Shown here piece after piece: positions 519-42,235 of a stretch of 64,000 nucleotides of DNA. The DNA is from Shinella sp. PSBB067 (lineage in GTDB: Bacteria > Pseudomonadota > Alphaproteobacteria > Rhizobiales > Rhizobiaceae). The notes under the pieces were generated by a model that made no database searches, was not told where the DNA came from, and worked only from the letters and a program-made list of their open reading frames with translations. The number at the start of each line of letters is the position of its first letter. Position 1 is the first letter of the stretch. Where the stretch lies: positions 868,001-932,000 of the forward strand of contig NZ_CP069303.1 in assembly GCF_016839145.1 (NCBI RefSeq), in the 5' to 3' direction. A program made the translations under genes and the position numbers.

Positions 519-736
519 CAGAACGGCACCTCGGGATCGGTGTCGCGATTGGCGGCTCGGTATTCACGTAGCGCATCCTGATAGCCGGTGACGGTAACCT
601 CGATCAGGGTGAGCACCTGCTGTTCGGAGAGGTCGGCAAACCGGGTCGGCCAGCCGATCTCCTCCATGATCTCGGCGACAGGTTTCATGGTGCTGCGGAT
701 CGCCGCCTGCTCGGCCAAGGTCGGGTCAACCATCAT
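518..736 (-). CDS. Small conserved prophage protein (72 aa), possibly DUF6511-like
   Basis: A 72-residue acidic protein beginning MMVDPTLAEQAAIRSTMKPV. It is predicted to be mainly helical, without signal peptide, membrane segment or cysteines. It overlaps the helicase gene upstream by 4 bp and the nuclease gene downstream at TGATG, so it is translationally coupled inside the replication cassette. From memory, similar short proteins occur in the same slot in rhizobial prophages and may carry the DUF6511 label; I cannot confirm that here. No function can be assigned beyond likely membership of the phage replication or recombination module. Confidence 0.6.
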   Translation of the reverse strand: MMVDPTLAEQAAIRSTMKPVAEIMEEIGWPTRFADLSEQQVLTLIEVTVTGYQDALREYRAANRDTDPEVPF

Positions 737-2412: not shown

Positions 2413-2427
2413 GGCTGGTTCCTCGCT

Positions 2428-3024
2428 CTATTGTGCCCACGAGGGACGCGCCGATGGTGCGGCGCCCGGCTGCCTGACCGCGGCATAGGCATTGCCCTGC
2501 GCAGCGGTGGTCTGCGGCATCGCCGTGACCATCCCCATGATCGCGGCGTAGTCCTTGTGGCTGGCGGTGACGGCGGAACGGACCTCGTTCTTGTCGTCGC
2601 CATTGGTGTCGGTACTGATGTCGATACGGGCGACGAACTCCAGCCCGTCGAGATCGGCAAAGCCGGAGATGCGGCGTGCAGCCTGGGCCGCTTCGCTCTG
2701 ATCCTTGTCGGAAAGGCCGCGGGCCGAATTGAGCATGCCGCGGATCAGGCCGCGCCCCATATTGGCCCATTCCGGACCCTTGGGGCTGTAGAGCCCGATC
2801 AGGGTGAAGATCTTGCGCCGGGCGTACTGACCTTCCAGCACCGTGAACTCGCCATTGAGATAGACCGCGCCGGTCGAGCCGCGCGTGGCGTAGCCGCCGG
2901 TCCAGCCCTGCGAAGGATCATCGAAGCCGCCGGGGCGGATGCTCAGCCGCACTTTGGCGAGCGTGCCCTTGGGGATGAGGTTGGTGTTGGTCTGCGCGTC
3001 GTTGAAATCGTTCCATGCCGACAT
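2428..3024 (-). CDS. Prophage protein of unknown function, possible ssDNA-binding protein
   Basis: A 198-residue soluble protein. The central part (about residues 20-110) is beta-rich with conserved-looking aromatic and glycine positions (GWTGGYATR, GEFTVLEGQYARRKIF, GLYSPKGPEWANMG). The tail is low-complexity, rich in Ala, Pro and Gln and ends SARPSWAQ. A compact beta-rich core followed by a disordered tail is typical of single-strand binding proteins. Its position between a Sak4-like ATPase and a helicase is where phage SSBs are often encoded. I do not recognise a named family, so the SSB idea is inference from layout. It lies 3 bp after the ATPase gene and is probably co-translated with it. 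Confidence 0.6.
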   Translation of the reverse strand: MSAWNDFNDAQTNTNLIPKGTLAKVRLSIRPGGFDDPSQGWTGGYATRGSTGAVYLNGEFTVLEGQYARRKIFTLIGLYSPKGPEWANMGRGLIRGMLNSARGLSDKDQSEAAQAARRISGFADLDGLEFVARIDISTDTNGDDKNEVRSAVTASHKDYAAIMGMVTAMPQTTAAQGNAYAAVRQPGAAPSARPSWAQ

Positions 3025-3027
3025 GGG

Positions 3028-3906
3028 TCAGGCTCCTTGTTCATGGTCTGCGGTGGGGGAGGTTTGCGGAGAGGCGGTCGCCGCCGGCGCTGCGAAAGTC
3101 TGGCGCGCCGCGTTGCGGATCTTGTCCATCAGCCGCCCGAGATCCGGCCGTTCGACCATCTCGAGCCGGCCGGAGCGGTCCTTGGCCGGAAAGCCGAAGG
3201 GATTGAGCGTCTGACAGACGAAGGCGCGATAGGGTGCGCCGTCCTCGTCCTTCAGCTCGACCATGCTGATGACTTCATCGACGATGCCGGGCAGTTCGAG
3301 GCCGGTCTTCGAACCGTCGATCTGCGGGACGAACAGCTTGCGATTGAAGTCGTCGAGTTTCTCGTCGAGGATGCCGACGAACCAGATGTTCTTCGAGCGC
3401 GTGTGCTGCAGGTGGGTCAGCCAGGCGATCATCTCGCGGCCATGCAGGCCGTAGGCGCCACGAATGTCGGGCTTGCCGGTCTTGTCGGAGAACGCCTCCG
3501 GCTGGCCCTTGGCCCACTGGAAGCAGAGCCGGCCGGCCACCGTGATCGAGTCGACGAAGACCGTCCGGTAGCGGTCGAGCTGAGCCGGATCGCCGAGACG
3601 TGCGACGACAGCGTCGAAATGCGCCTGGCTGTAGGGCTGGTCGTCACGCAACGCCGGATTGGCGCCACCGATGAACACCGCAAAGTCGCGGCATTCATCC
3701 CAGGTCCGGGGACGGATCGTGTCGCCGGGCCAACCCTCGATGGCGAGATCGCCCGCTTCAAGGTCCATGAACAGCGTGGTGGCCGGGTCGAGCGTCCACA
3801 GCAGCGAGGTCTTGCCGATGCCGGACTTGCCGAAGATGCAGCCCTTGATGCTGCGCGGAGCCGCCAGACGCTGATCGGCTGAGATGATGGGGAGTGCGGC
3901 CGTCAT
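3028..3906 (-). CDS. Sak4-like RecA-fold ATPase (phage recombination)
   Basis: A 292-residue AAA/RecA-fold NTPase. Walker A is GKSGIGKT at residues 26-33 and a Walker B-like RTVFVDSIT lies near residue 120. LFMDLEAGD follows soon after the P-loop, as in the AAA_24/Sak4 group. Known Sak4 proteins are single-domain RecA-like ATPases that help phage single-strand annealing together with an SSB and an exonuclease. All three putative partners are encoded here within 4 kb. The C-terminal ~30 residues are low-complexity (AAPAATASPQTSPTADHEQ). Its ATG overlaps the stop of the upstream gene (ATGA), indicating coupling. NTP binding is sure; the annealing-factor role is inferred from family and context. 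Confidence 0.78.
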   Translation of the reverse strand: MTAALPIISADQRLAAPRSIKGCIFGKSGIGKTSLLWTLDPATTLFMDLEAGDLAIEGWPGDTIRPRTWDECRDFAVFIGGANPALRDDQPYSQAHFDAVVARLGDPAQLDRYRTVFVDSITVAGRLCFQWAKGQPEAFSDKTGKPDIRGAYGLHGREMIAWLTHLQHTRSKNIWFVGILDEKLDDFNRKLFVPQIDGSKTGLELPGIVDEVISMVELKDEDGAPYRAFVCQTLNPFGFPAKDRSGRLEMVERPDLGRLMDKIRNAARQTFAAPAATASPQTSPTADHEQGA

Positions 3907-4388
3907 TGGGCACCCCCCTTCAGTTCGAGCTTCACCTTGAGTGCGCCGGTCCTGACCGTGCGGGCGGGCTCGAAGGTCTGGCGGATCGACTCGGGCCAGG
4001 CGGCGTATTTGCGTTCCGGTACCTTGAAGCTGACATCGACATATTCGGCAGGATCGTCACCGGCGGCGCTGATGCGCTCCACCAGACCGGCAAGAGCGGC
4101 CTGGTCCCAATCGACGCGCTTTGGCAGGTCGGCGATCACGGTGACCGCGCCGTCGTCGAAGCGGACGGTTCCAGTGTCCTTGCTCGCTTCCATGCGCGCC
4201 ATCACGGCGCGGTCGGTGTATTTGAGAGTGATGGCGCTTTCGAGCCAGTCGCTGATTGCCTTGGCGCTGCGCAGGGCCTCGTTGGCCGCGTCCTGCAAAA
4301 GGGCGAGCTGCTCGGCCGACAGAGCGACGATTTCGCCGATCTGCATGTTGCGCAGATCATCGATGGTGATGTGGTTGGGGATCGTCAT
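3903..4388 (-). CDS. Conserved prophage protein of unknown function (161 aa)
   Basis: A 161-residue protein starting MTIPNHITIDDLRNMQIGE. I chose the ATG at 4388 because a GAGG sits about 8 bases upstream and the upstream HTH gene stops at 4399; the longer open frame to 4523 would run inside that gene and has Ser/Arg-rich, non-coding-like sequence. The N-terminal half is helical (sensor-like ALSAEQLALLQDAANEALRS), the middle has a short beta segment (VRFDDGAVTVIADLPKRVDW) and the tail is lysine-rich. It could be a companion of the Sak4-like ATPase, since the two genes overlap by 4 bp. No family is recognised. Confidence 0.65.
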   Translation of the reverse strand: MTIPNHITIDDLRNMQIGEIVALSAEQLALLQDAANEALRSAKAISDWLESAITLKYTDRAVMARMEASKDTGTVRFDDGAVTVIADLPKRVDWDQAALAGLVERISAAGDDPAEYVDVSFKVPERKYAAWPESIRQTFEPARTVRTGALKVKLELKGGAQ

Positions 4389-4398
4389 CACGGCATCC

Positions 4399-4608
4399 TC
4401 ACGCCGTAGCCTGGTGGCGGTGGCCGGCGGTGCTCTGGCGGATCTGCTCGGCCTCGTAGGCTTCGACGTCCTCGAGGCGATAGACGACGCGGCCGCCGAG
4501 CTTGACGTATTGCGGGCCTTCACCTGTCCAGCGCCAGCGTTCCAGTGTGCGATGCGAAATGTTCCAGCGAGCAGCCAGCTCGATCTGGGAGAGGTGTCTG
4601 GTAGCCAT
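4399..4608 (-). CDS. AlpA/excisionase-like helix-turn-helix DNA-binding protein
   Basis: A 69-residue protein with a winged HTH of the HTH_17/MerR-like class filling residues 5-55. SQIELAARWNISHRTLERW is the HTH proper and GRVVYRLEDVEAYEAEQ the wing and following helix. Proteins of this size and fold serve as excisionases (Xis) or AlpA-type activators of integrase genes in prophages and genomic islands. It is the first gene of the tight cassette running left and is preceded by a 204-bp gap with GGGGATC repeats. Which of the two roles applies cannot be told from sequence; no integrase gene is adjacent. Confidence 0.78.
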   Translation of the reverse strand: MATRHLSQIELAARWNISHRTLERWRWTGEGPQYVKLGGRVVYRLEDVEAYEAEQIRQSTAGHRHQATA

Positions 4609-4652
4609 CCTGTTCTCCGTGGGTCCTTGAGAAAACCTGCGGAGAGGATGGC

Positions 4653-4819
4653 GGAGGATCAGAATGGTGTCGTCGGGATGGAAAGTGGATCGTCAGGGGA
4701 TCAGAATCACCGTTTCTTGCGCATGAAGGGGGATCGACAAGGGGATGAGAGGGGGATGCGCCGGCATGGGCATACGGAAAAGCTCGGCGGAACCGGGCGT
4801 GAGAGAGGGGGATCAGAAG
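4653..4819. repeat. Cluster of GGGGATC-type short repeats in a gene-free gap
   Basis: Three near-identical copies are seen: GGAGGATCAGAAT (4653-4665), GGGGATCAGAATC (4696-4708) and GGGGGATCAGAAG (4807-4819, running into the 3' end of the next gene). Degenerate copies start at 4728 (GGGGGATCGAC), 4741 and 4751. All have the same orientation with irregular spacing. They lie upstream of the HTH-led cassette, where an iteron-like binding site for the HTH protein, or a phage origin, would be plausible. The spacing is not regular enough to call iterons with confidence; a drifted coding remnant is an alternative. Confidence 0.4.
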
Positions 4820-5502
4820 AACCGGATATTGAGCCGATAGCGGCCGCGCCGGTCGGACTGGATCAATCTGCGCCATTCCGGCTGTGTCTTGAACAGATCC
4901 GACAGGCGCGTGCAGGAAGAGCCGGCTTCGGCCAGCACCGCCTTGCCATGTTGCCAGGGAACGCCGCGCATGGCCGCCTCATGAAGGATGCGCACGACAC
5001 GCGCCTGGATCTGGCCGAGCATGAAGGTTCGCTCCCCGAGAACGATCTCGCTGAAATCATGCCGTTGCTCGAAGACGACCCCGGATGTCCGCCGCGTACC
5101 GGCCAGTCCGTGCTTGGCTTCGGCACGGTCGCGCTCCTCTCGTCGGACGACCAGTTCTTCCTTGCGGATCAGGATTCCATCCTCGGGCCGTAGCACGACG
5201 CAGTAACGATCCTTCGGGGCGTCGAAGCGATCGATCCGCAGCGCGCCCTCGTGAAACAGCCGGTAGGCGTCATGGGTACGCAGATCCTGGAGCCCGTGAA
5301 AGGCAGCTCGTTCATCGGGAATGGAGCACCACTGACCCTCGTCGATCTCCTCGTAGCTGCCATGTTCGAGCTGGGCCCCGTAGAGGCGGACGGAGACCTT
5401 CAGCAGGCCGTTTTCGGCGAGATAGGCCAGATCGCGCTGCGGCACCTCCCATCGCTCCTCCAGCTCGTCCAGCGCGAAATAATCCTTCTCGATCGACGCC
5501 AT
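4813..5502 (-). CDS. Conserved prophage protein, N-terminal HTH-like, unknown function
   Basis: About 229 residues starting MASIEKDYFALDELEERW; a GTG nine bases upstream (5511) is an alternative start. The N-terminal 35 residues (ALDELEERWEVPQRDLAYLAENG) look like a MerR/HTH_17-type DNA-binding helix pair. The centre is charged (RKEELVVRREERDRAEAKHG). The C-terminal third (EAAMRGVPWQHGKAVLAEAGSS, TQPEWRRLIQSDRRGRYRLN) looks like a second small DNA-binding domain. It is transcribed leftward from the region shared with the repressor gene, so it is probably an early regulated prophage gene. No named family is recognised. Confidence 0.65.
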   Translation of the reverse strand: MASIEKDYFALDELEERWEVPQRDLAYLAENGLLKVSVRLYGAQLEHGSYEEIDEGQWCSIPDERAAFHGLQDLRTHDAYRLFHEGALRIDRFDAPKDRYCVVLRPEDGILIRKEELVVRREERDRAEAKHGLAGTRRTSGVVFEQRHDFSEIVLGERTFMLGQIQARVVRILHEAAMRGVPWQHGKAVLAEAGSSCTRLSDLFKTQPEWRRLIQSDRRGRYRLNIRFF

Positions 5503-5529
5503 CCCACGCACCCGCTCCGCAGATTTTTT

Positions 5530-5544
5530 GTTCCTGTTATGTTC
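5530..5544. promoter_or_regulatory. Perfect alphaproteobacterial SOS (LexA) box, GTTC-N7-GTTC
   Basis: GTTC at 5530-5533, seven bases, then GTTC at 5541-5544. This is exactly the GTTC-N7-GTTC direct repeat established for LexA in alphaproteobacteria such as Rhodobacter and Sinorhizobium. It sits between the divergent 4813-5502 gene and the repressor gene, just upstream of the repressor's candidate -35. LexA or the prophage's own S24-type repressor could use it; either way it would tie expression of the leftward cassette to DNA damage. Confidence 0.65.
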
Positions 5545-5551
5545 TATTCTC

Positions 5552-5580
5552 TTGACGCGGATGAATCAATCCTCTCTAAT
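5552..5580 (+). promoter_or_regulatory. Candidate sigma-70 promoter for the repressor gene
   Basis: TTGACG (5552-5557) and TCTAAT (5575-5580) are separated by 17 bp. A start site near 5587 would leave a short leader before the ATG at 5609. The SOS box ends 8 bp upstream of the -35, a position suited to modulating both this promoter and one reading left. Confidence 0.5.
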
Positions 5581-5608
5581 CCACAAAATCCACATGCCGG
5601 ACGACACC

Positions 5609-6277
5609 ATGAGCATCACCATCGCCGACAGACTGAGAGCCCGAGCCGAACAGCTGGGGCTGAATGCGCGTGAGGTGGCCGAGCAGGCGCGTGTCAACAG
5701 GTCCTTCGTCTACGACATCATGCGCGGCCGCTCGGAGCGGCCGAACCTGGAAAAGCTCGACAAGGTCGCGGCGATCATCAAGGTCGATCGCAACTGGCTC
5801 CTGCATGGCAAGGGCATGGTCGAGGGGGATGAGCCTGCCCTGGAGGAAGAAGAGGACCCGTTTGTGGCGATCCCGTCGGTCGAGGTGACGGCATCGATGG
5901 GCGGCGGCAAGCTCGTCGCGGACGAGGTGGAGAACGGCGAGCCCTACCACTTTAAAAGCTCGTGGATCACGCATCGCTTGCGTGCCAACCCGGCAAACCT
6001 GCGCATCATGCATGTGGAGGGCGACAGCATGATGCCGACGCTCCACGACGGCGATGTCGTTCTCGTCGACCTTGCCCGCTGCATGCCGACGCCGCCCGGG
6101 ATCTTCGTACTGTTCGACGGCATGGGACTGGTGGCCAAGCGCCTCGAGCACATCCCGAACTCGGAGCCGCCGCAGGTGCGCATCATTTCCGACAACACGT
6201 TCTACAGCCCCTATGAGCGCACCGCCGAAGAGATCAGGATCATCGGCCGCATCCGCTGGTTCGGCCGGGAGATCTGA
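5609..6277 (+). CDS. XRE-family repressor with S24 peptidase domain (CI/LexA-like)
   Basis: A 222-residue prophage-type repressor. The N-terminal XRE HTH (residues ~5-65) contains LNAREVAEQARVNRSFVYDI. After an acidic linker comes an S24/LexA-like domain with the serine motif EGDSMMPTLHDGD and the general-base lysine in MGLVAKRLE. Family members bind operators as dimers and are inactivated by RecA-stimulated self-cleavage. Here the usual Ala-Gly cleavage site is not obvious; the linker reads TASMGGGKL, so cleavage needs testing. ATG 5609 is chosen over ATG 5594 because the candidate promoter ends at 5580. It diverges from the leftward cassette and the next gene starts 2 bp after its stop. Confidence 0.85.
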   Translation: MSITIADRLRARAEQLGLNAREVAEQARVNRSFVYDIMRGRSERPNLEKLDKVAAIIKVDRNWLLHGKGMVEGDEPALEEEEDPFVAIPSVEVTASMGGGKLVADEVENGEPYHFKSSWITHRLRANPANLRIMHVEGDSMMPTLHDGDVVLVDLARCMPTPPGIFVLFDGMGLVAKRLEHIPNSEPPQVRIISDNTFYSPYERTAEEIRIIGRIRWFGREI

Positions 6278-6279
6278 TC

Positions 6280-7002
6280 TTGATCGTGTTCGAGGAAGTG
6301 GTCGATGACGATCCGGCGCTCGTGCACTCGCCAATGGTGCGGGCAATGGAAAAGACCTTCGCCTATATCTACGAGCACGGAGCGATCCCGCTGACGCCAT
6401 CAAAAGCCTTCAAACGCAGCTTCGTCCACTGGGCGGCCGCCGAGTTCGAATGGCCGGGCTATCTGGAGGCCGACCTCTTCGCCCTCAACAAGGTGCTGAA
6501 CGAGATCGACTTCGGTCCGCTGATGGACCTGCACGACCTGATGATTGCCCTGAAGATCGGGCGTCACTCCAAGGGCCAGTTCACGCTGACCAAGGCGGGC
6601 CAGTCCCTGGTTGGTCATCCTGGCCGGCTGTTCGGCATCATCACGCCGTTCTATCTCTTCGAAGTGGACCACCTGCGATTTGCACGGCGGCCGGAACGAT
6701 TGCCGGGCAATTGGAACATCTTCCTCAATGTGCTGAATGTCGAGGTCGAGAATGGCGCGACCGCAACGGAACTGCGCCACACGCTCTATGGGCCAAAGGG
6801 CGAGTCAGAACGCTTCGATATGATCCTCAGCAACCTCTATGTTCAGGTTCTGCGTCCGCTATGCTGGACGGGGCTGTTGCGGGAGGATCGCGTTGAGGGC
6901 GCGCGACGATTCGATGATGGCCTGTTCACCAAGACGTCACTGTGGCGCACGGCGCTGCGCCTGGACACCGACAGGGACGTGCGGCCGGCAACGCACCACT
7001 GA
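6280..7002 (+). CDS. Unknown protein co-transcribed with the repressor (240 aa)
   Basis: A 240-residue soluble protein with a TTG start at 6280, two bases after the repressor stop, and a GGGAG about 10 bases upstream. An internal ATG at residue 19 is an alternative start. Aromatic-rich segments stand out (FVHWAAAEFEWPGYLEADLF, IITPFYLFEVDHLRF, PGNWNIFLNVLNVEVENG). The C-terminal third looks like a winged-helix layer (TELRHTLYGPKGESERFDMI ... LYVQVLRPLCWTGLL). No catalytic motif, signal peptide or membrane helix is visible. Tight linkage to the repressor suggests a lysogeny-associated role, for example an immunity, antirepressor or toxin-like protein; this is inference only. Confidence 0.7.
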   Translation: MIVFEEVVDDDPALVHSPMVRAMEKTFAYIYEHGAIPLTPSKAFKRSFVHWAAAEFEWPGYLEADLFALNKVLNEIDFGPLMDLHDLMIALKIGRHSKGQFTLTKAGQSLVGHPGRLFGIITPFYLFEVDHLRFARRPERLPGNWNIFLNVLNVEVENGATATELRHTLYGPKGESERFDMILSNLYVQVLRPLCWTGLLREDRVEGARRFDDGLFTKTSLWRTALRLDTDRDVRPATHH

Positions 7003-7033
7003 GCAGGCCGTGCCACCGCGTAACGTTATCGCC

Positions 7034-7330
7034 CTACTGCACCTTGTCGACGTTGCGCGTGGTGGCAGGGAGGGACTTCACGGGCGGCGTCTGCGGCCCA
7101 CCATATCCGGAACCGGCATGGTAACAGGCCGTGAGGCAGTCGTTGCCGTTGATGGGGCTTGTTGAATACGAGATGATGCGGTTTCCGTTGTCGCAGATGC
7201 AGGAATAGAGATAGTGCTTACCAAGGGACGGCGAGGATGCCTGCACTTTCTCAATCCGGTAGGCCGATGCCGTAGTGGCGGTGGCAATGAGGGCTGCCAG
7301 CATGGCAGTGACTTGTACGACGCGCTTCAT
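7034..7330 (-). CDS. Small secreted cysteine-containing protein (98 aa)
   Basis: A 98-residue protein. The ATG at 7330 follows a strong ribosome-binding site (GGAGGAAC, 3 bases before the start), which decides against the longer open frame to 7471. Residues 1-23 form a signal peptide (basic MKR, hydrophobic core, ending TASA). The mature part is ~75 residues with four cysteines in two clusters (SCICDNG and DCLTACYH), which could form two disulfides. No family is recognised. It converges on the unknown gene ending at 7002. It may be cargo of the element rather than a phage structural gene. Confidence 0.65.
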   Translation of the reverse strand: MKRVVQVTAMLAALIATATTASAYRIEKVQASSPSLGKHYLYSCICDNGNRIISYSTSPINGNDCLTACYHAGSGYGGPQTPPVKSLPATTRNVDKVQ

Positions 7331-7507
7331 GTGTTCCTCCCGAGCCATAAGATGTGGGCAGCGTAGGTCGGGCAATCTGAACCGCCGCTGAACCAGCGCC
7401 ATCCAGTACTCATGATTACGCACGAACATGATAAGCAATTGATTGTGCTTGTGTTTCCATGATTTGTGCATACCGTTCGCTGGTCAGGATTGATTGCGAA
7501 CGGTCTC

Positions 7508-7732
7508 ATGCACGACATCTCCTCCGCCCCGAACCCCTTGTCGCCCGAGCGCATGACGAGCGATGAGCGGCTTGCCGAACTCGGCCGGATTCTCGCCGCT
7601 GGGCTGAGGCGGGTTCTGCCCGAACAGTCCAGTCATTTATCTGCCGCCGGCAAAGACAGTTCATTCGACATTCTCGCCCTCAAACGCCGTGTTGGTCGTC
7701 GCAAACCGAGCAACCGAGTTGGAGGACAATGA
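7508..7732 (+). CDS. Small protein upstream of the serine-recombinase triad (74 aa)
   Basis: A short reading frame whose stop (TGA, 7730-7732) overlaps the start of the DUF2924 gene. Possible starts are ATG 7508 (MHDISSAPNPLSPERM) and ATG 7553 (MTSDERLAELGRILAAGLRR); neither has a strong ribosome-binding site. The part from the second ATG is helical and basic, ending RRKPSNRVGGQ. Small proteins in this position ahead of DUF2924 and recombinase genes are common in rhizobial prophage-like loci, from memory. Translational coupling supports its reality; function is unknown. Confidence 0.55.
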   Translation: MHDISSAPNPLSPERMTSDERLAELGRILAAGLRRVLPEQSSHLSAAGKDSSFDILALKRRVGRRKPSNRVGGQ

Positions 7733-8241
7733 TGTCGGAAACGACGAAACGGGCTGGATCGAAACAGAACCAGCAGCATGAAAAAATGGCGGCGGACACG
7801 CCGGTGCTGGCCAGGCTGGCGGCGCTGAAGCGCATGTCGGTTAGGGAGCTGAAAGCCGAGTGGGAGGCCTTGTTCGCGGCGCCAGCGCCGAACAACAGCC
7901 GCGGCTATCTCGAAATGCGGCTGGCCTGGCGCATCCAGGAACTGGCCCTTGGCGGGCTTTCCCGTGAGACTCGCAAGATACTGGACCTGCTGGCCGACGA
8001 GATCGACGGCAATTCCGGTCGCAAGGCGATCATTGCCGATCCGCGCAATCCGGTCATCGGCACGCGGCTGGTCCGCGAGTGGGATGGTATCGAACACACT
8101 GTCACCGTAATGAAGGACGGGTTCGATTGGCAGGGCCGCCGGTTCAAGTCGCTGTCAGCGGCAGCGCGCGCGATCACCGGCACGCAATGGAACGGCTACC
8201 GCTTCTTCGGCCTCCGCGAGCCGCGGAGGGATGACCGATGA
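7729..8241 (+). CDS. DUF2924 family protein
   Basis: A 170-residue basic protein. It has the recognisable DUF2924 arrangement: a helical first half (VLARLAALKRMSVRELKAEW ... GYLEMRLAWRIQELALGG) and a beta-rich second half (GTRLVREWDGIEHTVTVMKD, FDWQGRRFKSLSAAARAITG, GTQWNGYRFFGL). The second half looks like a small DNA-interacting fold. It has a good ribosome-binding site (GGAGG at 7721). Both ends overlap neighbours by 4 bp, so it is coupled to the small gene before and the recombinase after. Members of this family are regularly found directly upstream of large serine recombinases, suggesting an accessory or directionality role; the biochemical function is not known. Confidence 0.85.
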   Translation: MMSETTKRAGSKQNQQHEKMAADTPVLARLAALKRMSVRELKAEWEALFAAPAPNNSRGYLEMRLAWRIQELALGGLSRETRKILDLLADEIDGNSGRKAIIADPRNPVIGTRLVREWDGIEHTVTVMKDGFDWQGRRFKSLSAAARAITGTQWNGYRFFGLREPRRDDR

Positions 8242-9572
8242 GCCGTCATCAGGAAATCGCTGCACCCGTTCCGCGCCGTTTGCGCTGCGCCATCTACACC
8301 CGCAAGTCGAGCGAGGAAGGGCTCGACATGGAATTCAACTCGCTCGATGCCCAGCGCGAATCCTGCGAGGCCTATGTCGCCAGCCAGCGTTCGGAGGGGT
8401 TTGCCGCCATCCGCGAACGCTATGACGATGGCGGTCATTCCGGCGGCACCCTGGAGCGACCGGCGCTGCAGCGTCTGCTCGTCGATGTGGAAGCCGGGCT
8501 GATCGACGTGATCGTGGTCTACAAGATCGACAGGCTCAGCCGGTCGCTGATGGATTTCGCCAAGCTGGTGGAAATCTTTGACCGGAATCAGGTGACCTTC
8601 GTGTCGGTCACCCAGTCGTTCAACACCACGACCTCGATGGGGCGGCTGACGCTCAACATCCTGCTGTCCTTCGCCCAGTTCGAGCGCGAGGTGATCGGTG
8701 AGCGCATCCGCGACAAGATTGCCGCCTCGCGCAAGCGCGGCATGTGGATGGGCGGCTTCGTGCCGCTCGGCTACCGTGTCGAAAATCGCAAGCTGCTGAT
8801 CGAAGAGACGGAAGCCGAGACGGTGCGTATGATCTTCGAGCGGTTCGTTGCCATCGGCTCGGCCACGGTGCTGGCGAAGACGCTTGCCGCCGAGGGCGTG
8901 CGCACGCGGCGCGGCAAGCCAATCGACAAGGGCTTTCTCTACAAGCTCCTCAACAACCGCGTCTATATTGGCGAGGCTGTGCATAAGGGCGCGAGCTATC
9001 CCGGTGAGCACGAGCCGATCATCGACCGTGCGCTGTGGGACAAGGTCCACACCATCCTGCAAACCAGCCCGCGCCAGCGTGCCGCCAACACACGTGCGCA
9101 GACACCGGCCCTGCTCAAGGGGCTGATCTTCACCGACACCCGCACGGCGATGACGCCGACGGCGACGAAAAAGGGAGTCAAGCTCTATCGCTACTATACC
9201 TCGATGGACCTGATCCGGAACCGCACGGTCGATGCCGCTGGGCCGCAGCGCCTTCCCGCCGGCATGGTCGAGGATGCCGTCATCGGCGAAATCCGCCGCA
9301 TGATCGCGACGCCCGAGGTCCGGGCGCGGGCGCTTTCCGCCCTGAAGGCGGACATGCCGGACGTCGACGACAAGGCAGTCATCGCCGCTCTTGGCGAGTT
9401 CGATGCTTTGTGGGCGTCGCTGTTTCCGGCCGAACAGGCACGCATCGTCCAGCTTCTGGTGGCCCGCGTCACGGTCGGTACCGCAGGGCTGGCGATCGAT
9501 CTGCGCCATGACGGATTCGGCTCGCTGGCGCGTCAGATGATGGCGTCACAGACCCGAATGGATGCAGCATGA
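8238..9572 (+). CDS. Large serine recombinase
   Basis: A 444-residue site-specific recombinase. The resolvase/invertase catalytic domain spans about residues 15-165: YTRKSS has the nucleophile Ser24, followed by YDDGGHSGGTLERPAL, IDRLSRSL and the SFAQFEREVIGERIRDK helix. The recombinase domain follows (~190-270, LNNRVYIGEAVHKG). The region normally forming a zinc beta-ribbon (~290-330, LLKGLIFTDTRTAMTP) lacks the paired cysteines, as seen in other members of this subgroup. It is the likely integrase or excisionase of an element in this region, or a relic of one. It overlaps the genes on both sides by 4 bp. Confidence 0.9.
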   Translation: MSRHQEIAAPVPRRLRCAIYTRKSSEEGLDMEFNSLDAQRESCEAYVASQRSEGFAAIRERYDDGGHSGGTLERPALQRLLVDVEAGLIDVIVVYKIDRLSRSLMDFAKLVEIFDRNQVTFVSVTQSFNTTTSMGRLTLNILLSFAQFEREVIGERIRDKIAASRKRGMWMGGFVPLGYRVENRKLLIEETEAETVRMIFERFVAIGSATVLAKTLAAEGVRTRRGKPIDKGFLYKLLNNRVYIGEAVHKGASYPGEHEPIIDRALWDKVHTILQTSPRQRAANTRAQTPALLKGLIFTDTRTAMTPTATKKGVKLYRYYTSMDLIRNRTVDAAGPQRLPAGMVEDAVIGEIRRMIATPEVRARALSALKADMPDVDDKAVIAALGEFDALWASLFPAEQARIVQLLVARVTVGTAGLAIDLRHDGFGSLARQMMASQTRMDAA

Positions 9573-9967
9573 CGGACCGGACCATCCGTGTGGTCATTCC
9601 GCTGGCCGTGCGCAAGAAGAATGGTCGTCCGAAGATCCTGCCGCCGGCCGACCACATGCCCGCCGAGACGCGGGCGCAGGATGCGCATGTGCTGCGCGCC
9701 ATCGCTCGTGCATGGAACTGGCGGCGCAGGCTGGAACGCGGTGAGGCCTCGACCATTGCCGACATCGCCACCGCCGACAAGGTCACCGACCGCTTCGTCA
9801 GCCGCATGATGCGATTGGCTTACCTTGCCCCAGACGTGCTGGAGAAGCTGCTGATCCACCGCATTCCGCCGGCGCTATCGCTCAACGATCTGATCGCCGC
9901 AGCAGATCTGCCATGGGCGGAGCAGATGGAGGCAGTGTTCGGTGCAGTTGGTCCTCGAACGGATTAG
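9569..9967 (+). CDS. Small HTH-like protein paired with the serine recombinase
   Basis: A 132-residue basic protein whose ATG overlaps the recombinase stop (ATGA). The middle (AWNWRRRLERGEASTIADIA, then TDRFVSRMMRLAYLAPDVLE) looks like a ParB/Spo0J-type or sigma-like helix-turn-helix. IHRIPPALSLNDLIAAADLP follows. From memory, the same segment is found as the C-terminus of longer recombinases in related genomes, so this may be a split-off accessory DNA-binding domain working with the recombinase. It converges with the thermonuclease gene; their stop codons overlap (TTAG at 9964-9967). Confidence 0.72.
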   Translation: MTDRTIRVVIPLAVRKKNGRPKILPPADHMPAETRAQDAHVLRAIARAWNWRRRLERGEASTIADIATADKVTDRFVSRMMRLAYLAPDVLEKLLIHRIPPALSLNDLIAAADLPWAEQMEAVFGAVGPRTD

Positions 9968-10704
9968 TTCCGAGCCCGACGCCACCCAGCTGCCTGCGCT
10001 TCATCCTCGGTGCAGAACCAGCGCTCGCCTTTGCTCTCCGAGATCCTGGTCTTGTCGTAGTCCTGCTGGCCCGGCACATGGTAGATTCGCGTGCCGTTGC
10101 GGCTGATGTTGCCCTTGATCTGGCATCCGGTTGTCGGAATCGCAGATGCCATGGGTTGCGGCAGGAGATGCTGCTGCGCGTTCATCGGTACCGACAAGGC
10201 ACCAAGAATCTCGGTCTGTGGGCCACGATGGCGCCAATCCCAGGGCGCGATGAACGCACCAGACCACAGGCCTGCCTGCTGGGCGCGTGCAAGCTGCTCC
10301 TCACCAACATAGATATCCGAGTAGCGCCGGAACGCGAGCGCCCAGCCTCCGGTCACCATCGCTGCGTTGATGTCCGTCTCGCCAGCAACGCAGGACATGA
10401 TGCGTCGGCCATAGCGGTCTATGTCATTGCCCGTGCAGGTGACCGAGCGTCCCTGAACCAGGCGAGCCAGCGCATCGCGGGCGGCGATCCCGCAAGTGTA
10501 GTTTTTTTCGGCTTTGTTGATACAGACTTGGTCAGTCTCCGGCGCATCGATGCCGTTCAACCGGATCCTCGTGCCCTTTATTGTAATGGTGTCGCCGTCG
10601 GAAATTCTCGCGGTGCCTGTTATTGTCGCTGCCGTTGCTGCGGCAATCGGATCTGCAAGCAGTAAAGTAGCGATCAGAAGAATCAGGGCGGGGCGATGAA
10701 TCAT
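9964..10704 (-). CDS. Secreted thermonuclease (SNase-like) with C-terminal Cys/Trp domain
   Basis: A 246-residue protein with an N-terminal signal peptide (residues 1-~25, ending AATA). The staphylococcal-nuclease domain (~28-140) has DGDTITIKGTRIRLNGIDAP, the catalytic arginine in IRLNGIDAPE and the second conserved stretch DRYGRRIMSC. After a proline/glutamine-rich linker, residues ~195-243 carry a separate small module: CQIKGNISRNGTRIYHVPG ... GERWFCTEDEAQAAGW. This tail is found on other secreted nucleases in alphaproteobacteria. Predicted role: calcium-dependent cleavage of extracellular or periplasmic DNA/RNA. It begins at ATG 10704, back to back with the next gene. Confidence 0.85.
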   Translation of the reverse strand: MIHRPALILLIATLLLADPIAAATAATITGTARISDGDTITIKGTRIRLNGIDAPETDQVCINKAEKNYTCGIAARDALARLVQGRSVTCTGNDIDRYGRRIMSCVAGETDINAAMVTGGWALAFRRYSDIYVGEEQLARAQQAGLWSGAFIAPWDWRHRGPQTEILGALSVPMNAQQHLLPQPMASAIPTTGCQIKGNISRNGTRIYHVPGQQDYDKTRISESKGERWFCTEDEAQAAGWRRARN

Positions 10705-10984
10705 GGGGGTATTGTCTGACGTAACAGCATGGATTGAAAGGCGGCGACAAATGAGACGGCTGTTCCAGGATGACGCCCGCCAGCTGGTCGAACGGGATCC
10801 CGTAACAGCCTACTATGATGCGCAACGGGCTGCAGCTCGGGCCCGATTTGCCGGTGACGGCCGCTCCTTCCTGCACTGGGCGAAAGTGGCGGCAGAGGTC
10901 GCGCGGATCAGCAATGCGTCGATGGACTACGAGATCGTTAAAAGGATAGTCGACGAAGAGGAAAAACGGGCAAGGCCATCGTAA
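10703..10984 (+). CDS. Small hypothetical protein (93 aa)
   Basis: An open frame of 93 codons from ATG 10703, which overlaps the oppositely oriented ATG of the thermonuclease gene, so one of the two starts may be annotated too long. A second ATG at residue 17 (10751, MRRLFQDDARQLVERDPV) is a realistic alternative. The protein is helical, charged and ends VDEEEKRARPS. No family is recognised and there is no signal peptide or membrane helix. It lies 116 bp before the helicase gene in the same direction. Confidence 0.5.
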   Translation: MGVLSDVTAWIERRRQMRRLFQDDARQLVERDPVTAYYDAQRAAARARFAGDGRSFLHWAKVAAEVARISNASMDYEIVKRIVDEEEKRARPS

Positions 10985-11100
10985 TGAAACTGATCTAAGC
11001 GGCAAAGAGGGCGGCCATAGATTAGTCTAGTGATTCGAGTTGGAGGAAAACTAGGCAAAGCGAATTGCCGATGTAGATCGCCAAGCGCGAAGGGGGGGCA

Positions 11101-14100
11101 ATGCCGGGGGTGATACACGAAGAAGAGTTGGCTGGGTGGAACCCGGAAACGAGCGGGACGCGCGTTCGGCTTCGCGACAATCCTGGCAGGCAGGGAACGA
11201 CGACCGGAAGGGTTAAGAAGGCAGGCACTTTCCTGATGGTCGAAGTGGATTTCGGCCCCAACGAAAAGCAATACAAGCGCTACGAGCTGCTGGAGCCCAT
11301 CGCGGAGGAGGTGCAGATTTTTGATCTGCTTGAGGGCGGTTCATTCGGCGGCCCCAGCGACCTCCGGCGGGTTTTGACCTTTGAGAAGATCAAAGGCGAA
11401 TTGACCAACGTCTTCTATTCGATGGAAGCCAGCAACACAGACTTCTATCCGCACCAGTTCAAGCCGGTCATGCGATTTATCGAATCCCCGATCGGCCGGA
11501 TGCTGATCGCCGACGAAGTCGGTCTCGGGAAAACGATCGAAGCAACGTATATCTGGAAAGAAATTCAGGCCCGTCATCAAGCTAGGCGGCTGCTGATCAT
11601 CTGTCCCGCCATGCTGCGCGAGAAGTGGCGTGAGGATCTGCGCAAGCGTTTCAACATAACCGGCGAAATCGTTTCCGCGAGCACCCTTTATGAGCGGGTC
11701 AAGGACATCGCCAGCTCCAGAAGCGCGGAGTCGTTCGTCTGCATCACCAGCCTGGAGGGGCTGCGTCCTCCCGCGAATTACGCGGATGAGAACATCGGCG
11801 GCGTCAGGGCGGAATTTGCCCGCATTCTCTACCAAAACACGGCCAGCGACGAGTTCGCCCTCTTCGACCATGTCGTTATCGACGAGGCCCACTATCTCAG
11901 GAATCCTTCGACCGCCAACAATAGGCTTGCCCAGCTTCTAAGAGAGGCATCGCATCACCTTGTGCTGCTGACCGCAACGCCGATCCAGATCGGCAGCGAC
12001 AATCTTTATCAGCTTCTGCGCCTGATCGATCCCGATCAGTTCTACGATTCATACCTGTTTGGGGAAATGCTTTCGGCGAACTCCTGCATCGTGCGCGCGC
12101 AAAGGGCGTTATGGCAGCAGCCCGCCGATATTCCGGCGGCGCTGAAGGCGATTTCGGAGGCGGAGAAGTCCGACTATTTCAAGAATGACGCCGTCCTTGC
12201 GCGCATCAAGGAACATCTTCGCGATGACGCCACCGATGCCGAACGGCGCGTGGAGATTCTCCGGCTTCTGGAATCGCGCTCGCTTCTTTCCCAATACATG
12301 ACCCGAAGCAGGAAGCGCGAAGTTCTGGAACGGCGCGTCGAGCGGGCGCCCCAGGTACTTAGCGTCAGGTTCAGCGCGGACGAAAAGCAGCTCTACGACC
12401 ATGTGACCAGTCGCCTGCGCGATGAAGCGACGGGCAAAACCGGCGTGTCGCTATTCTCGCTTATCGCGCGGCAGAGGCAGATGGCCAGTTCGATCGTCGG
12501 CGCGCTCGAAAGCTGGGGCGACAAGGGCCTCATCGAAGAGCTTTTGTGGGAAGACTTCGGTATTTCGCCGCAGCTCCGTTCGGAGCCGCACGGCAACAAA
12601 GATGGCGACGATGCGGTTGATGTCGCACCGCCCGACATCGGCCTCAAGCACGAGCTGGGCGCGCTGGAAAAGGGCGATGAAAAATATCGGGCGCTCCAGC
12701 AGTTTCTTGCGAATGAGCTGAAACGGAATCCGCGCGAGAAGTTCGTCATCTTCGCCTTCTATCGCGGCACCCTCAAATACCTCGCCCGCCGTCTGAAGGC
12801 TGACGGGATCAATGCGGCGCTGATCATGGGGGACATGGGCAAAGAGAAAGACGATCTGATCCGCGCCTTCGCCCGACCCGACGGGCCGTCAGTCCTGCTC
12901 TCTTCCGAAGTCGGAAGCGAGGGTATCGACCTTCAATTCTGCCGCTTTATCGTGAACTACGATCTTCCCTGGAACCCCATGCGGGTGGAACAACGGATCG
13001 GCCGTCTTGACCGATTGGGGCAGAAAGCGGAACGCATCTCGATCATCAACATGGTGGTCGAGAACACGATCGAAGACCGCATCCTGATGAGGCTGTATGA
13101 TCGCATCAACGTGTTCCGCGAGAGCATCGGCGATCTCGAAGACATTCTCGGGGAAGTGACGGAGCAGTTGCTCGTCAACCTGCTCGATCCGACCCTGACG
13201 GACGAGGAGCGCGAGCGAAAATCCGTCGAGGCGGAACTTGCAATCTGCAACACGCAGAGGGAGCAGCAGCGCCTGGAGGAAGAGGCGGTCAACCTTGTCG
13301 GGTTTTCCGACTACATCCTCGACCATATCAGCGACAGCCGTGAAAAGGGCCGGTGGCTGAGCGCAAGCGAGCTCCAGTCTCTCGTGGAGGACTTCTTCGC
13401 GCGCAATTTTCCCGGCACCAAGTTCGACGCTGTCGCGGGCGCGGAATATGCCCTGCGCATTACTCTCTCGGAGGAAGCGCGGCGCTCGCTAGGTTACTTC
13501 ATATCGGAGGCACGGCCATCGACGAGAACGCAGCTTCATCGAAGCGGCAGGCCGATCCTTTGCATTTTCGACCCGCGCCGCGCCGACGAGGTTTCCGCCG
13601 AAGCAGAGTTCATCGAGCCAAGCCATCCCCTCATACAATGGATACGCTTCAGCTACGAGGACGACCAAAGTCAGCTCCATCGCGTCACCGCGATAAAAGT
13701 CCCGGCGCAGGATGCCGGTGTCCCTCCAGGCGACTATGTATTCAGCGCCCACCGCTGGTCGTTTAACGGCCTGAAATCCGATCAGTCGCTTGCCTTCAGG
13801 GTGAAGCCGCTCGGAAGCGACCGCACGCTGGGGGCCTCGGAGGCCGAAGCGCTGATTACCGTTGCCTCGCGCGCGGGCGAGAAGCTGCCGAACGCGGTCA
13901 ACGTGCTCCCGAACATCGAGATCATCTGCGAGGCTGCCGTAGGATGCGAAGAAGCGCTGGGGGACGCATTTTCGGAGCGCCTTTCCGATTTTGAGGCGGA
14001 GAACACGGTGCGCTGCGATCAGCAGCGAACTAGCGCCGAAAAGCTCGCGAGCCGCCGCATCGAAGGCCTGAAGGCCCGCGTCGCCCGGTTTCGCGCGGAA

Positions 14101-14247
14101 GGGAATCTGCGCCCCGTTGCGATGACGGAAGGCCTCATAAGGAAAGAGGAGGAGCAGTTGAAGATCAAGCTCGATCGCGTTTCACGGCGCCAACAGGTCG
14201 ATCCGACCATGATCCCGCTTGCGGCGGGCGTTGTGAGGGTTGTCTGA
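11101..14247 (+). CDS. RapA-like SNF2-family helicase/translocase (1048 aa), partner of the Hsp70-like ATPase
   Basis: A large SWI2/SNF2 ATPase. Residues ~18-65 (GTRVRLRDNPGRQGTTTGRV) look like a small SH3/Tudor-type barrel as in RapA. The SNF2 core follows: motif I ADEVGLGKT (137-145), motif II DEAH (261-264), motif III LLTATP (~289-294), motif V SSEVGSEGIDL (~601-611) and motif VI QRIGRLDRLGQ (~631-641). The last ~400 residues hold charged coiled-coil-like stretches (~700-725 and ~975-1030) and no domain I recognise. Such enzymes translocate on dsDNA and remodel protein-DNA complexes. It is translated from ATG 11101 behind a G-rich ribosome-binding site and ends 1 bp before the Hsp70-like gene. 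Codon use is less GC-biased than the core genes, suggesting acquisition. DpdE- or DISARM-type helicases are relatives, but their partner genes are absent here. Confidence 0.88.
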   Translation: MPGVIHEEELAGWNPETSGTRVRLRDNPGRQGTTTGRVKKAGTFLMVEVDFGPNEKQYKRYELLEPIAEEVQIFDLLEGGSFGGPSDLRRVLTFEKIKGELTNVFYSMEASNTDFYPHQFKPVMRFIESPIGRMLIADEVGLGKTIEATYIWKEIQARHQARRLLIICPAMLREKWREDLRKRFNITGEIVSASTLYERVKDIASSRSAESFVCITSLEGLRPPANYADENIGGVRAEFARILYQNTASDEFALFDHVVIDEAHYLRNPSTANNRLAQLLREASHHLVLLTATPIQIGSDNLYQLLRLIDPDQFYDSYLFGEMLSANSCIVRAQRALWQQPADIPAALKAISEAEKSDYFKNDAVLARIKEHLRDDATDAERRVEILRLLESRSLLSQYMTRSRKREVLERRVERAPQVLSVRFSADEKQLYDHVTSRLRDEATGKTGVSLFSLIARQRQMASSIVGALESWGDKGLIEELLWEDFGISPQLRSEPHGNKDGDDAVDVAPPDIGLKHELGALEKGDEKYRALQQFLANELKRNPREKFVIFAFYRGTLKYLARRLKADGINAALIMGDMGKEKDDLIRAFARPDGPSVLLSSEVGSEGIDLQFCRFIVNYDLPWNPMRVEQRIGRLDRLGQKAERISIINMVVENTIEDRILMRLYDRINVFRESIGDLEDILGEVTEQLLVNLLDPTLTDEERERKSVEAELAICNTQREQQRLEEEAVNLVGFSDYILDHISDSREKGRWLSASELQSLVEDFFARNFPGTKFDAVAGAEYALRITLSEEARRSLGYFISEARPSTRTQLHRSGRPILCIFDPRRADEVSAEAEFIEPSHPLIQWIRFSYEDDQSQLHRVTAIKVPAQDAGVPPGDYVFSAHRWSFNGLKSDQSLAFRVKPLGSDRTLGASEAEALITVASRAGEKLPNAVNVLPNIEIICEAAVGCEEALGDAFSERLSDFEAENTVRCDQQRTSAEKLASRRIEGLKARVARFRAEGNLRPVAMTEGLIRKEEEQLKIKLDRVSRRQQVDPTMIPLAAGVVRVV

Positions 14248-14248
14248 C

Positions 14249-15853
14249 ATGGCAAGCTGGCGTGACAGGCTTAGATCGCTTCACGTGCGTGTGTTTGGCA
14301 GGGCGGAAGTTCCGCCATCCTCTTCCGAATCAGACGACGAACGGCCCAGCATTACGGAGTCTCCCGATCTTGCGCAGGCCGCGCCTGTCGTTGCGGAGAA
14401 GGCGCCTGCAAGCCGGGCAAGAGCCCCTACGGGCAAAGCGCCGGCAACCGTCAAGACACAAGGCAAGCGGGCGGCGGTCGCATCGAATGACGCTCCGCCA
14501 CGGAGCACGCCCAAGGCAAGACCGCTAGCCATCAATCTCGGCATCGATTTTGGCACGAGCTTCACGAAAGTCTGCTTTCGCGACCTCGGCAGTGAGGTAT
14601 CGGGAACTGTCGCGGCCGGCAAGGGCGGCAAGGAAGCGCTTGTGCCCTCGATTGTTGCAATCGGTTCCGATGGGCGGCTGTTTCTTGGCGACAGCGTTTC
14701 CAGCAAGCAAGCCGCCGTTATCGTTCCTTACCTGAAGATGCGCCTTGCGGGCGGGCCAATCGGCGAACGCCTGCCCACGTTCGAGGGCATCGACCTGAAC
14801 AAAGCCGAATCCGTCGGGGCGCTTGCCGCGTGGTTTCTTGCGGCGGTGATCCACCGCAGCCAGCAATGGCTTGCCGTCCACGAAGCAGACAGGCTTAAGA
14901 ATCGCGTTGCGGACTGGTCCGCGAATGTGGGCGTGCCTGTTGAGCACTACGATTCACAAGCACTTGCGACATTTGAAGAAGTGCTTGGCGTCGCCTGGCT
15001 GTGGGTCAAGGACGATCAGGTGCCGAAAACGCTCCAGCAGGCGTTGTCGTCGTATGGGGCTACTCAACAGCGCCTTGTGGCCGAGGTTACGGACTTTCAT
15101 GCAGTGCCGGAAATTGCTGCGGCGGTGCAATCGTTCGTCATGTCCCGTGAAGCCGTCCCGGGCATCTATGTTTATTTCGACGTTGGCGGCGGCACAGTCG
15201 ATGGCGTCGCGTTTAATTATCTGAATTTCCGGGGAGAGCGACGGATCAACTTCTATTCCGGCAAGATCGAGCCTTTGGGCGTCTCCGCGATTGGAACGGC
15301 CGTATCGAAAGGCGTTACAGATGAAATCGACGCTGTGGCACTGGAGAAGATCCTGAAGAGCTGCGCGCCATCGACACTGACCGAGTTCGTTCAGAGAATT
15401 CGCAGGCTCGTCGGTTACGTCGTCATGACCGCGCGACAAAAGGACGGCCGGAACTGGCAGGAAGACGCCTTCCAGAGCGCCGAGTACGAGAGAAAGTTCA
15501 TCGGCAAGCTATCGAGTTCTCGCATGCGCCCACTAATCGTTTTCATGGGCGGCGGCGGTTCGAACTCCGCTTGGTATAGGCAATCGATAGAGTCTACCTA
15601 CAAGGCCTTCCAGCACTACAACGCGGGCGTTCCACCATATAAGCTGGTGGAGGTTCCCCGCCCCAAGGACTTCATCGTGCCGAAAGGCGGCGCCGATGAG
15701 TTTGTTCGCTACGCCATCGCCTACGGCCTGTCGTTCCCCTTCGGGGAGGGGCCTGACATAGGGCTGCCGAGCCAGTTCGGCGAAGCCGAAAAGCCTCGCC
15801 AGTGGACGCCTCCCGGTGCGTTCGATTACGCGAACAGCAAGGATTACTGCTGA
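14249..15853 (+). CDS. Hsp70/actin-fold ATPase lacking a canonical substrate-binding domain (534 aa)
   Basis: A 534-residue protein. Residues 1-92 are a disordered Ala/Pro/Lys/Ser-rich leader. The Hsp70-type nucleotide-binding domain follows: phosphate-1 LGIDFGTSFTKVCF (97-110), phosphate-2 YFDVGGGTVDGVAF (309-322) and an adenosine motif FMGGGGSNSAWY (432-443). RYAIAYGLSFPF (488-499) resembles the closing helix of the fold. It stops ~35 residues later at a C-terminal cysteine, so the peptide-binding domain and lid of DnaK are missing. ATG 14249 is preferred to an upstream TTG because GAGGG lies ~10 bases before it and the helicase stop (TGA 14245-14247) is adjacent. The two genes form one operon. 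Role inferred: an ATP-driven sensor or switch for the helicase. Confidence 0.85.
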   Translation: MASWRDRLRSLHVRVFGRAEVPPSSSESDDERPSITESPDLAQAAPVVAEKAPASRARAPTGKAPATVKTQGKRAAVASNDAPPRSTPKARPLAINLGIDFGTSFTKVCFRDLGSEVSGTVAAGKGGKEALVPSIVAIGSDGRLFLGDSVSSKQAAVIVPYLKMRLAGGPIGERLPTFEGIDLNKAESVGALAAWFLAAVIHRSQQWLAVHEADRLKNRVADWSANVGVPVEHYDSQALATFEEVLGVAWLWVKDDQVPKTLQQALSSYGATQQRLVAEVTDFHAVPEIAAAVQSFVMSREAVPGIYVYFDVGGGTVDGVAFNYLNFRGERRINFYSGKIEPLGVSAIGTAVSKGVTDEIDAVALEKILKSCAPSTLTEFVQRIRRLVGYVVMTARQKDGRNWQEDAFQSAEYERKFIGKLSSSRMRPLIVFMGGGGSNSAWYRQSIESTYKAFQHYNAGVPPYKLVEVPRPKDFIVPKGGADEFVRYAIAYGLSFPFGEGPDIGLPSQFGEAEKPRQWTPPGAFDYANSKDYC

Positions 15854-16214: not shown

Positions 16215-16304
16215 TGGCGGAGAAGAAGGGATTCGAACCCTCGATACCGTTTCCGGTATACTCCCTTAGCAGGGGAGCGCCTTCGACCACTCGGCCACCT
16301 CTCC
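16215..16304 (-). tRNA. tRNA-Ser (anticodon GCT)
   Basis: Read on the minus strand, the acceptor strand GGAGAGG (16304-16298) pairs with CTTCTCC, followed by G73 and an encoded CCA (16217-16215). The D arm contains GGCCGAGTGGTCGAAGGC. The anticodon stem CTCCC/GGGAG encloses the loop CTGCTAA, giving anticodon GCT for AGC/AGU codons. A long variable arm (ATACCGGAAACGGTAT) marks a class II serine tRNA, and the T arm has the GGTTCGAATCC signature. Its 3' end faces the accessory region on the left, making it the probable integration target. Confidence 0.96.
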
Positions 16305-42204: not shown

Positions 42205-42235
42205 TCGTGCGGGGCGCTGCCCGGCAGGCGGCGCC

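Follow-up and report, generated by a model that had tools for sequence, protein, structure and literature searches.

SNF2-family motors occur in several kinds of bacterial defence, among them DISARM, Dpd and systems of the BREX and Hma types, and to our knowledge it is unclear how such motors are kept off host DNA. A pair of adjacent genes in Shinella sp. PSBB067 brings a further protein into this setting. The pair lies in a 64,000-nucleotide stretch of contig NZ_CP069303.1 (positions 868,001 to 932,000 of the forward strand; hereafter the window, in whose own numbering coordinates are given unless stated otherwise) and consists of a RapA-like SNF2 ATPase followed by an Hsp70-like ATPase. It is a conserved pair, carried here on mobile DNA, in which a known motor has a new partner, and it looks like an undescribed bacterial defence module.

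The closest described systems contain one of the two proteins or the other. In the available passages of six papers, Hsp70-like domains belong to GTPase-centred systems and SNF2 helicases to Hma/BREX-related ones, and the two are never found together (PMC11090510, PMC12458937, PMC3710099, PMC12839542, PMC8565338, PMC7159879). As far as the available text goes, the DUF499-centred, BREX-related Hma systems resemble our locus in having a SNF2 helicase of RapA-like plan (PMC8565338, PMC12839542); term counts gave no Hsp70, Hsp90, sacsin or chaperone in the one paper (PMC12839542) and no Hsp70 or chaperone in the other (PMC8565338). The CoCoNuT and GAP1-N2 GTPase systems, again from partial text, show that Hsp70-type domains occur in conflict systems, one such class having an Hsp70 domain without a peptide-binding domain, but they are built round McrB-type or TRAFAC GTPases and not round a SNF2 motor (PMC11090510, PMC7159879). 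A further paper is announced on McrBC with a DISARM-like system (PMC11090510), and a YprA-like helicase has been placed in a McrBC/DISARM-like cassette (PMC12458937); judging by the passages available, neither is this pair. No description of the SNF2/Hsp70-like pair was found in the literature searched, which was largely without subscription papers.

The first gene (11101..14247, + strand) encodes a SNF2-family ATPase of 1048 residues. Its motifs are intact, as an earlier note on this DNA had claimed: DEVGLGKT from residue 138, DEAH at 261, TATP at 291 and QRIGRLDR at 631. The motor is predicted to have RapA architecture, since the modelled protein has a RapA-like fold over its full length and its closest full-length structural match is E. 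coli RapA, over residues 69-1048. RapA is a housekeeping RNA-polymerase recycler, and we know of no dedicated Hsp70-type partner gene for it. At the level of family profiles, PADLOC's DrmD profile (PDLC02623) covers the whole protein at 978 bits and finds no other strong match in the genome (next best, 53 bits). The protein falls short of the NCBIfam equivalogs for DrmD (438.8 bits, cut-off 610), DpdE (207.3 bits, cut-off 500) and RapA (195.2 bits, cut-off 576), and its scores against other PADLOC helicase profiles, such as DrmA, are weak. It is thus like the DrmD of DISARM in its profile match and its RapA-like motor, and differs from it in scoring below the NCBIfam cut-off and in having an Hsp70-like partner.

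The second gene (14249..15853, + strand) encodes an Hsp70-type ATPase of 534 residues. It appears in the list of open reading frames (ORFs) as 14240-15853 (+), starting at a TTG and 537 residues long; read from the ATG at position 14249, it has 534 residues and lies 1 bp from the SNF2 gene, as had been reported. Prediction makes the protein an Hsp70-type nucleotide-binding domain that retains its motif residues and has no substrate-binding domain. The motifs are GIDFGTSFTK (residue 98), PEIAAAV (287), FDVGGGTVD (310) and FMGGGGS (432), and the columns that are invariant over 75 sequences include D100, G102, K163, E288, D311 and T316. Alignment, model and structural match place the domain at residues 91-510 (14519..15778, +), with residues 93-510 of the model aligning with Hsp70 nucleotide-binding domains. 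The roughly 24 residues that follow are too few for a DnaK-type substrate-binding domain, so the earlier description of ATP-binding motifs of the Hsp70/actin kind without such a domain holds. Ahead of the domain, a helix (residues 4-16, consensus WRxxLxxLRxR) and a linker to residue 90 (14249..14518, +), mostly modelled at low confidence, could possibly act as a docking tether.

By sequence the protein is far from DnaK, which is a separate gene in this genome and about 15% identical to it. Pfam gives no family at E 0.1, HSP70 (PF00012) included, and a PDB sequence search returned no hits. Because the profile alignment to the genome's DnaK spans only residues 90-176, and there puts K163 one place off the DnaK lysine, residue equivalences to DnaK rest on motifs and fold. 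Foldseek and VIA lists hold mostly SNF2 proteins for the motor and mostly Hsp70 proteins for its partner, lists in which the absence of other folds is uninformative. The only PADLOC match to be recorded is a marginal one to PDC-M61B (E 0.014, 12.1 bits; the homologue at locus L023 reaches E 0.00036 and 17.4 bits). The PADLOC run that the earlier note had proposed has a divided outcome: the Hsp70-like protein has no more than that marginal match, and the SNF2 protein, with its DrmD profile match, is not outside the known defence families. Homologous Hsp70-like ORFs at the cyanobacterial loci L010-L016 and L021 are longer, roughly 700 to 1070 residues with mechanically assigned starts, because of an N-terminal extension, and the ORF at L021 has weak matches to the LmuB, JetC and PbeC profiles.

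The two genes stay together at every locus retrieved with the Hsp70-like gene. In a contig scan with the Hsp70-like protein, a SNF2 gene, whole or partial, lay beside the Hsp70-like gene at 19 of 19 genome loci (seven in rhizobia and relatives, one in a metagenome-assembled genome of Arenicellales and 11 in cyanobacteria), with identities falling to 33% for the Hsp70-like and 51% for the SNF2 protein. Three of these SNF2 genes are incomplete (L009 and L018 are cut by a contig end, and about 231 residues are left at L017), and at L019 the Hsp70-like gene is split over two frames. Five plasmid records carry the Hsp70-like gene, and in each of them the SNF2 gene is likewise adjacent, in one as judged from match coordinates only; there identities reach down to 24% and 33%, respectively. 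In 22 measured pairs (L002, L009 and L017-L019 being omitted as near-copy, cut or broken, and ORF starts being mechanical) the SNF2 gene comes first in 14 and the Hsp70-like gene in eight, with gaps of -8 to 160 bp. Chance neighbours were rejected on the strength of the linkage at every locus and the reversed order at some. The distance matrices of the two proteins over these 22 pairs correlate at r 0.97, a value that shared descent would by itself give in large part, and none of 2000 permutations was as high. As a rough further sign of linkage, 42 longest-contig sizes were common to 120 Hsp70-like and 120 SNF2 clusters among the matches listed. The linkage thus holds across bacterial phyla, with the two divergences running in parallel.

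The pair is also rare. An even sample of 398 genomes from Pseudomonadota, the window's genome included, was scored with at most two or three candidates per genome, so that weaker copies may be missed. At E <= 0.001 the Hsp70-like profile found eight of these genomes: in five the match is strong (E <= 4e-26), and in the other three it is confined to short stretches at 2e-4 to 1e-3. The SNF2 profile matched eight at E <= 1e-60, five at 744 bits or more and three at 330-422 bits. The five strong Hsp70-like genomes are the five best SNF2 genomes, and the genes are adjacent in all five, of which the window's genome is one. Near the host, the Hsp70-like gene occurs in two of 151 genomes, its own and G067, where the match coordinates are those of L001.

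In several relatives the pair adjoins other defence genes, so the co-occurrence that the earlier note had asked for was found both within the pair and, often, around it. At L005 the order is an HmaB-type methylase (1107 bits), an HmaC-type HEPN-DUF499 ATPase (954 bits), the SNF2 gene, the Hsp70-like gene and a PDC-S68 RecD-like helicase, an arrangement that the ORFs of L006 and L007 parallel in length and order (by size only). At L001, and in the identical ORF layout of its near copy L002, a DpdF-like and UvrD-like double helicase precedes the pair, which is followed by PDC-S68, an HKD-SNF2 protein and DUF4391. SbcD- and SbcC-like genes precede the pair at L003. McrBC-type genes recur among the more distant pairs: L023 has a RecB-like nuclease, an AAA_5 ATPase and McrC before the pair and Hachiman and AbiEii genes on the opposite strand after it; L085 has an RNase_H_2/helicase, a 165-residue ORF, the pair, AAA_5 and McrC; and L086 has the pair, Cas4-like/DUF2779, AAA_5 and McrC. 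At L024 and L087 one ORF separates the pair from a ZacB-like protein encoded further downstream, whose PLD domain falls below the Pfam cut-off at L087. Type I-D cas genes lie about 7 kb upstream at L021, an integrase and toxin-antitoxin genes accompany the pair at L022, with HsdR 11 kb off, and a PADLOC HEAT-ARM_XIII match lies 2.6 kb downstream at L012. The earlier statement that the partner genes of known systems are absent is correct for the window, but methylase, DUF499 ATPase, PLD and McrBC genes do occur beside homologous pairs.

In the window itself, none of the DISARM class 1 partners DrmA, DrmB (DUF1998), DrmC and methylase was found among the window proteins scanned (ten with Pfam, six with PADLOC), and DISARM in situ was rejected for lack of these genes in the locus. 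Hma in situ was rejected because DUF499 has no match in the whole genome; the Hma combination of a DUF499 ATPase with a DUF1156-type methylase is absent here and present in the relative L005, just upstream of the pair. Nor was a CoCoNuT-like operon with an McrB-type GTPase found: Pfam placed none of the ten proteins scanned in an McrB or McrC family, and the AAA_5 and McrC genes of L023, L085 and L086 flank distant pairs.

A neighbouring SNF2 branch has a different ATPase in the same position. Immediately downstream of the remaining three SNF2 genes of the 398-genome sample (L088, L089 and L090), a sacsin/Hsp90-type ATPase is encoded. The downstream genes of L088 and L090 match Pfam SACS, and at L089, which lies at a contig end, two short downstream ORFs match the same sacsin-type proteins. 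Among plasmids, eight of 712 records with a SNF2 match have at least 80% query coverage, five of them Hsp70-partnered and three, by Pfam, sacsin-partnered (L034, L035 and L036); a ninth match, at 72% coverage (L079), has a sacsin-type partner 84% identical to that of L036. The sacsin-type proteins of L034, L035 and L088, all three that were scanned, are TmtA-like in PADLOC, and the Hsp70-like family profile retrieves none of the sacsin-type proteins. Five weaker SNF2 matches taken for contrast (L037 and L080-L083) have no annotated Hsp70-like or sacsin-type partner, some of their neighbours being annotated as 'hypothetical' only. In a tree of 29 SNF2 proteins (20 Hsp70-partnered, four sacsin-partnered and the five contrast rows; L085-L090 not included), each group forms one branch, with supports of 97/96, 97/94 and 100/100, respectively, and the partner labels need two changes compared with a mean of 8.5 in shuffles. 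Because its rows come from search hits, several branches are long and the root is a midpoint, the tree gives grouping and not direction of change. The literature search listing held no obvious description of the SNF2/sacsin pairing (L034, L035, L036, L079, L088-L090).

The ratio of nonsynonymous to synonymous divergence (dN/dS) is 0.15-0.22 for the Hsp70-like gene against L001, L003, L004 and L005, and 0.07-0.18 for the SNF2 gene against the same loci plus L007, which was used for the SNF2 gene alone since synonymous divergence (dS) of the Hsp70-like gene is saturated there. These values indicate purifying selection, and both genes are therefore maintained. Against L001, dS is 0.036 for the SNF2 gene and 0.312 for the Hsp70-like gene, and DNA identity runs at 97-100% from 11301 to about 14700 and then at 77-92% until 15700. 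This places an approximate, putative recombination break inside the Hsp70-like gene at 14701..14900; on the simplest reading of these sequences, one lineage would have acquired most of its nucleotide-binding domain anew by recombination. The most variable stretch of that domain is residues 346-375 (15284..15373, +), with a mean entropy of 2.9-3.2 bits compared with 2.4-2.6 in the next highest blocks and 0.7-1.3 in the motif blocks, and within the coding part of 15301-15500 the DNA has low identity to both L001 and L003. The variable patch and the break favour a recognition role for the Hsp70-like protein, although relaxed constraint would also fit the patch.

The local setting is that of a prophage. 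The window opens with the right-hand part of one (1..9967; phage helicase, Sak4-like protein, CI-type repressor and integrase), for which there are related copies in this genome (G000:C2:797376-807610) and in one congener (G001:C1:3452547-3463693). Its large serine integrase (8238..9572, +) shares 50% identity with the integrase of Acidithiobacillus phage AcaML1. To the right of the pair lies a tRNA-Ser (GCT) gene (16215..16304, - strand) with its 3' end at 16215, exactly where similarity begins to the five congeners, of 20, that were compared (about 17 kb each, mostly left side); at the tRNA-Ser locus of those five, window 1-16214 has no match. A second copy of the tRNA 3' end, expected at the opposite end of the element, was not found, and for that reason the left attachment site is not located. 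The pair looks to occupy a cargo slot flanked by the integrase and the attachment side. In the related prophage of this genome the slot after the integrase holds matches to MzaB, MzaC and MzaD, and in the G001 element another tRNA-Ser lies 1.6 kb after the integrase. The earlier note had set the pair in low-GC DNA between a serine-recombinase module and a tRNA gene. The tRNA is indeed there, but what was taken for a module is the end of a prophage that carries the integrase, and a tyrosine recombinase on the far side of the tRNA (16739-17653) went unmentioned; roughly half of the congeners have DNA matches to this recombinase, and there is no clear sign that it belongs to the element. GC content in 2-kb windows is indeed low over the pair (58-61%, mostly 64-71% elsewhere), but values of 59-62% recur in the stretches at about 4-9 kb, about 15-21 kb and around 26-29 kb.

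Other features were recorded nearby. A 93-residue ORF upstream of the SNF2 gene (10703..10984, +) appears to be optional: it is also upstream in L004 (79.6% identity) and, among the loci compared, otherwise only in a stretch of the window's own genome. The SNase gene at 9964-10704 was rejected as a third component, being on the opposite strand, with a start that by eye resembles a signal peptide. About 45-80 kb to the left of the pair, G000:C2:797376-836414 (L075, L092, L093) holds a second prophage-type element and, after it, a string of defence genes: Mza-type genes, an ORF that by eye is Vsr-like, another that is DrmA-like and a DUF1998 protein. At 17798-20581 a pair of related genes, porin-like by eye, point in opposite directions; their N-terminal parts are almost the same. 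A DNA identity of about 83% to the plasmid carbapenemase gene blaBKC-1 suggests that 41344-42306 is a chromosomal relative of this class A beta-lactamase gene.

Given the pairing, the shared tree group, the defence neighbours, Mza in the slot of the sister prophage, the patchy occurrence and purifying selection, the pair reads as a defence module, and genomic context makes a defence role likely. A fuller version, in which a mobile, prophage-borne module couples a double-stranded-DNA motor to a nucleotide-controlled partner that gates it, we regard as evenly balanced between right and wrong. In such a module the Hsp70-like protein would bind the SNF2 protein, with its N-terminal helix and C-terminal tail perhaps serving as docking points, and depending on whether it held ATP or ADP it would keep the motor off or let it run. 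An invader product touching the variable patch of the nucleotide-binding domain would flip that state, and the freed motor would travel along the invading DNA. In the minimal two-gene form, as here, it might strip bound proteins such as RNA polymerase; in larger forms it might feed DNA to nuclease modules (McrBC/RecB-like, PLD, or HEPN-DUF499 plus methylase). That the Hsp70-like protein is a sensor or switch, as the earlier note had proposed, is a plausible, reasoned guess from indirect hints.

Several observations weigh against this reading. First, Pfam gives no nuclease domain in the pair, the C-terminal part of the SNF2 model, where a degenerate or active nuclease fold could be hidden, not having been searched on its own. 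Second, a RapA-like architecture is also compatible with a role in transcription. Third, the defence neighbours were noted without a matched control and with few cyanobacterial neighbours among those scanned; the two neighbours scanned at L004 are a tRNA synthetase and a protein without any match, and PADLOC matches neither of the two L008 neighbours scanned. The accessory genes also vary between clades, so none is a fixed third component. Finally, a viral contig scan with the Hsp70-like alignment gave 36 stretches that matched the pattern, none of which encodes a relative, and tblastn of the Hsp70-like protein against phage records gave no match.

The alternative that survives best, though we consider it unlikely, is that the SNF2 protein is a harmful effector that clears host DNA of RNA polymerase and that the Hsp70-like protein folds or holds it in silence until infection depletes ATP or the partner. 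Tight linkage with parallel divergence would follow, and the chaperone-type fold of the partner, the Hsp90-type ATPase of the sister branch and the lack of a Pfam nuclease domain all fit; a keeper without a substrate-binding domain does not, nor does the SNF2 gene's first place in 14 of 22 pairs, as keeper genes often precede their toxin. Improbable on present evidence is a pair that maintains transcription, in which a RapA-like protein recycles RNA polymerase with the help of an ATPase cofactor and has no part in defence. RapA is indeed the closest full-length structural match, but a maintenance function is hard to square with so rare a pair (two of 151 genomes near the host, one being the host's own, and five strong of 398) or with the defence neighbours of several relatives, and the NCBIfam RapA score and this rarity led us to reject housekeeping RapA as the principal reading. 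There is a similarly small chance that the pair serves the phage, in superinfection control or replication of the carrier prophage, with host defence as a by-product; its place between integrase and tRNA would suit this, but relatives sit on plasmids and near defence genes and none was found in the viral contigs or phage records searched. That the SNF2 protein is a DrmD acting in trans with the genome's only DUF1998 match (834310 in contig numbering) and a DrmA-like ORF (829686-832880) is very improbable: it is the sole strong DrmD-type match in the genome, but those genes lie about 45-50 kb to the left, outside the operon, the constant neighbour at homologous pairs is the Hsp70-like gene, and the annotated DISARM DrmD of L037 falls outside the Hsp70-partnered group and has no such annotated partner.

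The sister branch invites a broader proposal, which we hold only tentatively and think more doubtful than not. In eukaryotic SWI/SNF and INO80 remodellers, actin/Arp subunits accompany the SNF2 motor. Chaperone-type ATPases may be dedicated regulators of one RapA/DrmD-like SNF2 branch, of Hsp70 type here and of sacsin/Hsp90 type in the sister, and the Hsp70-type partner would then be a bacterial counterpart of the actin/Arp subunits that tune the eukaryotic motors, turned into a diversifying invader sensor that gates the motor against foreign DNA. The likeness is that of an actin/Hsp70-fold ATPase beside a SNF2 motor; the structural matches here are Hsp70-type, and nothing in these data points to a shared binding site or to common ancestry.

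A SNF2 branch whose constant partner is a single ATPase protein, and which can exist as two genes alone, would make the question of motor control directly testable. If the defence reading is true, an Hsp70-type domain without a substrate-binding domain would join the known immune regulators, and Hsp70-type and Hsp90-type ATPases would fill the same place beside one kind of motor.

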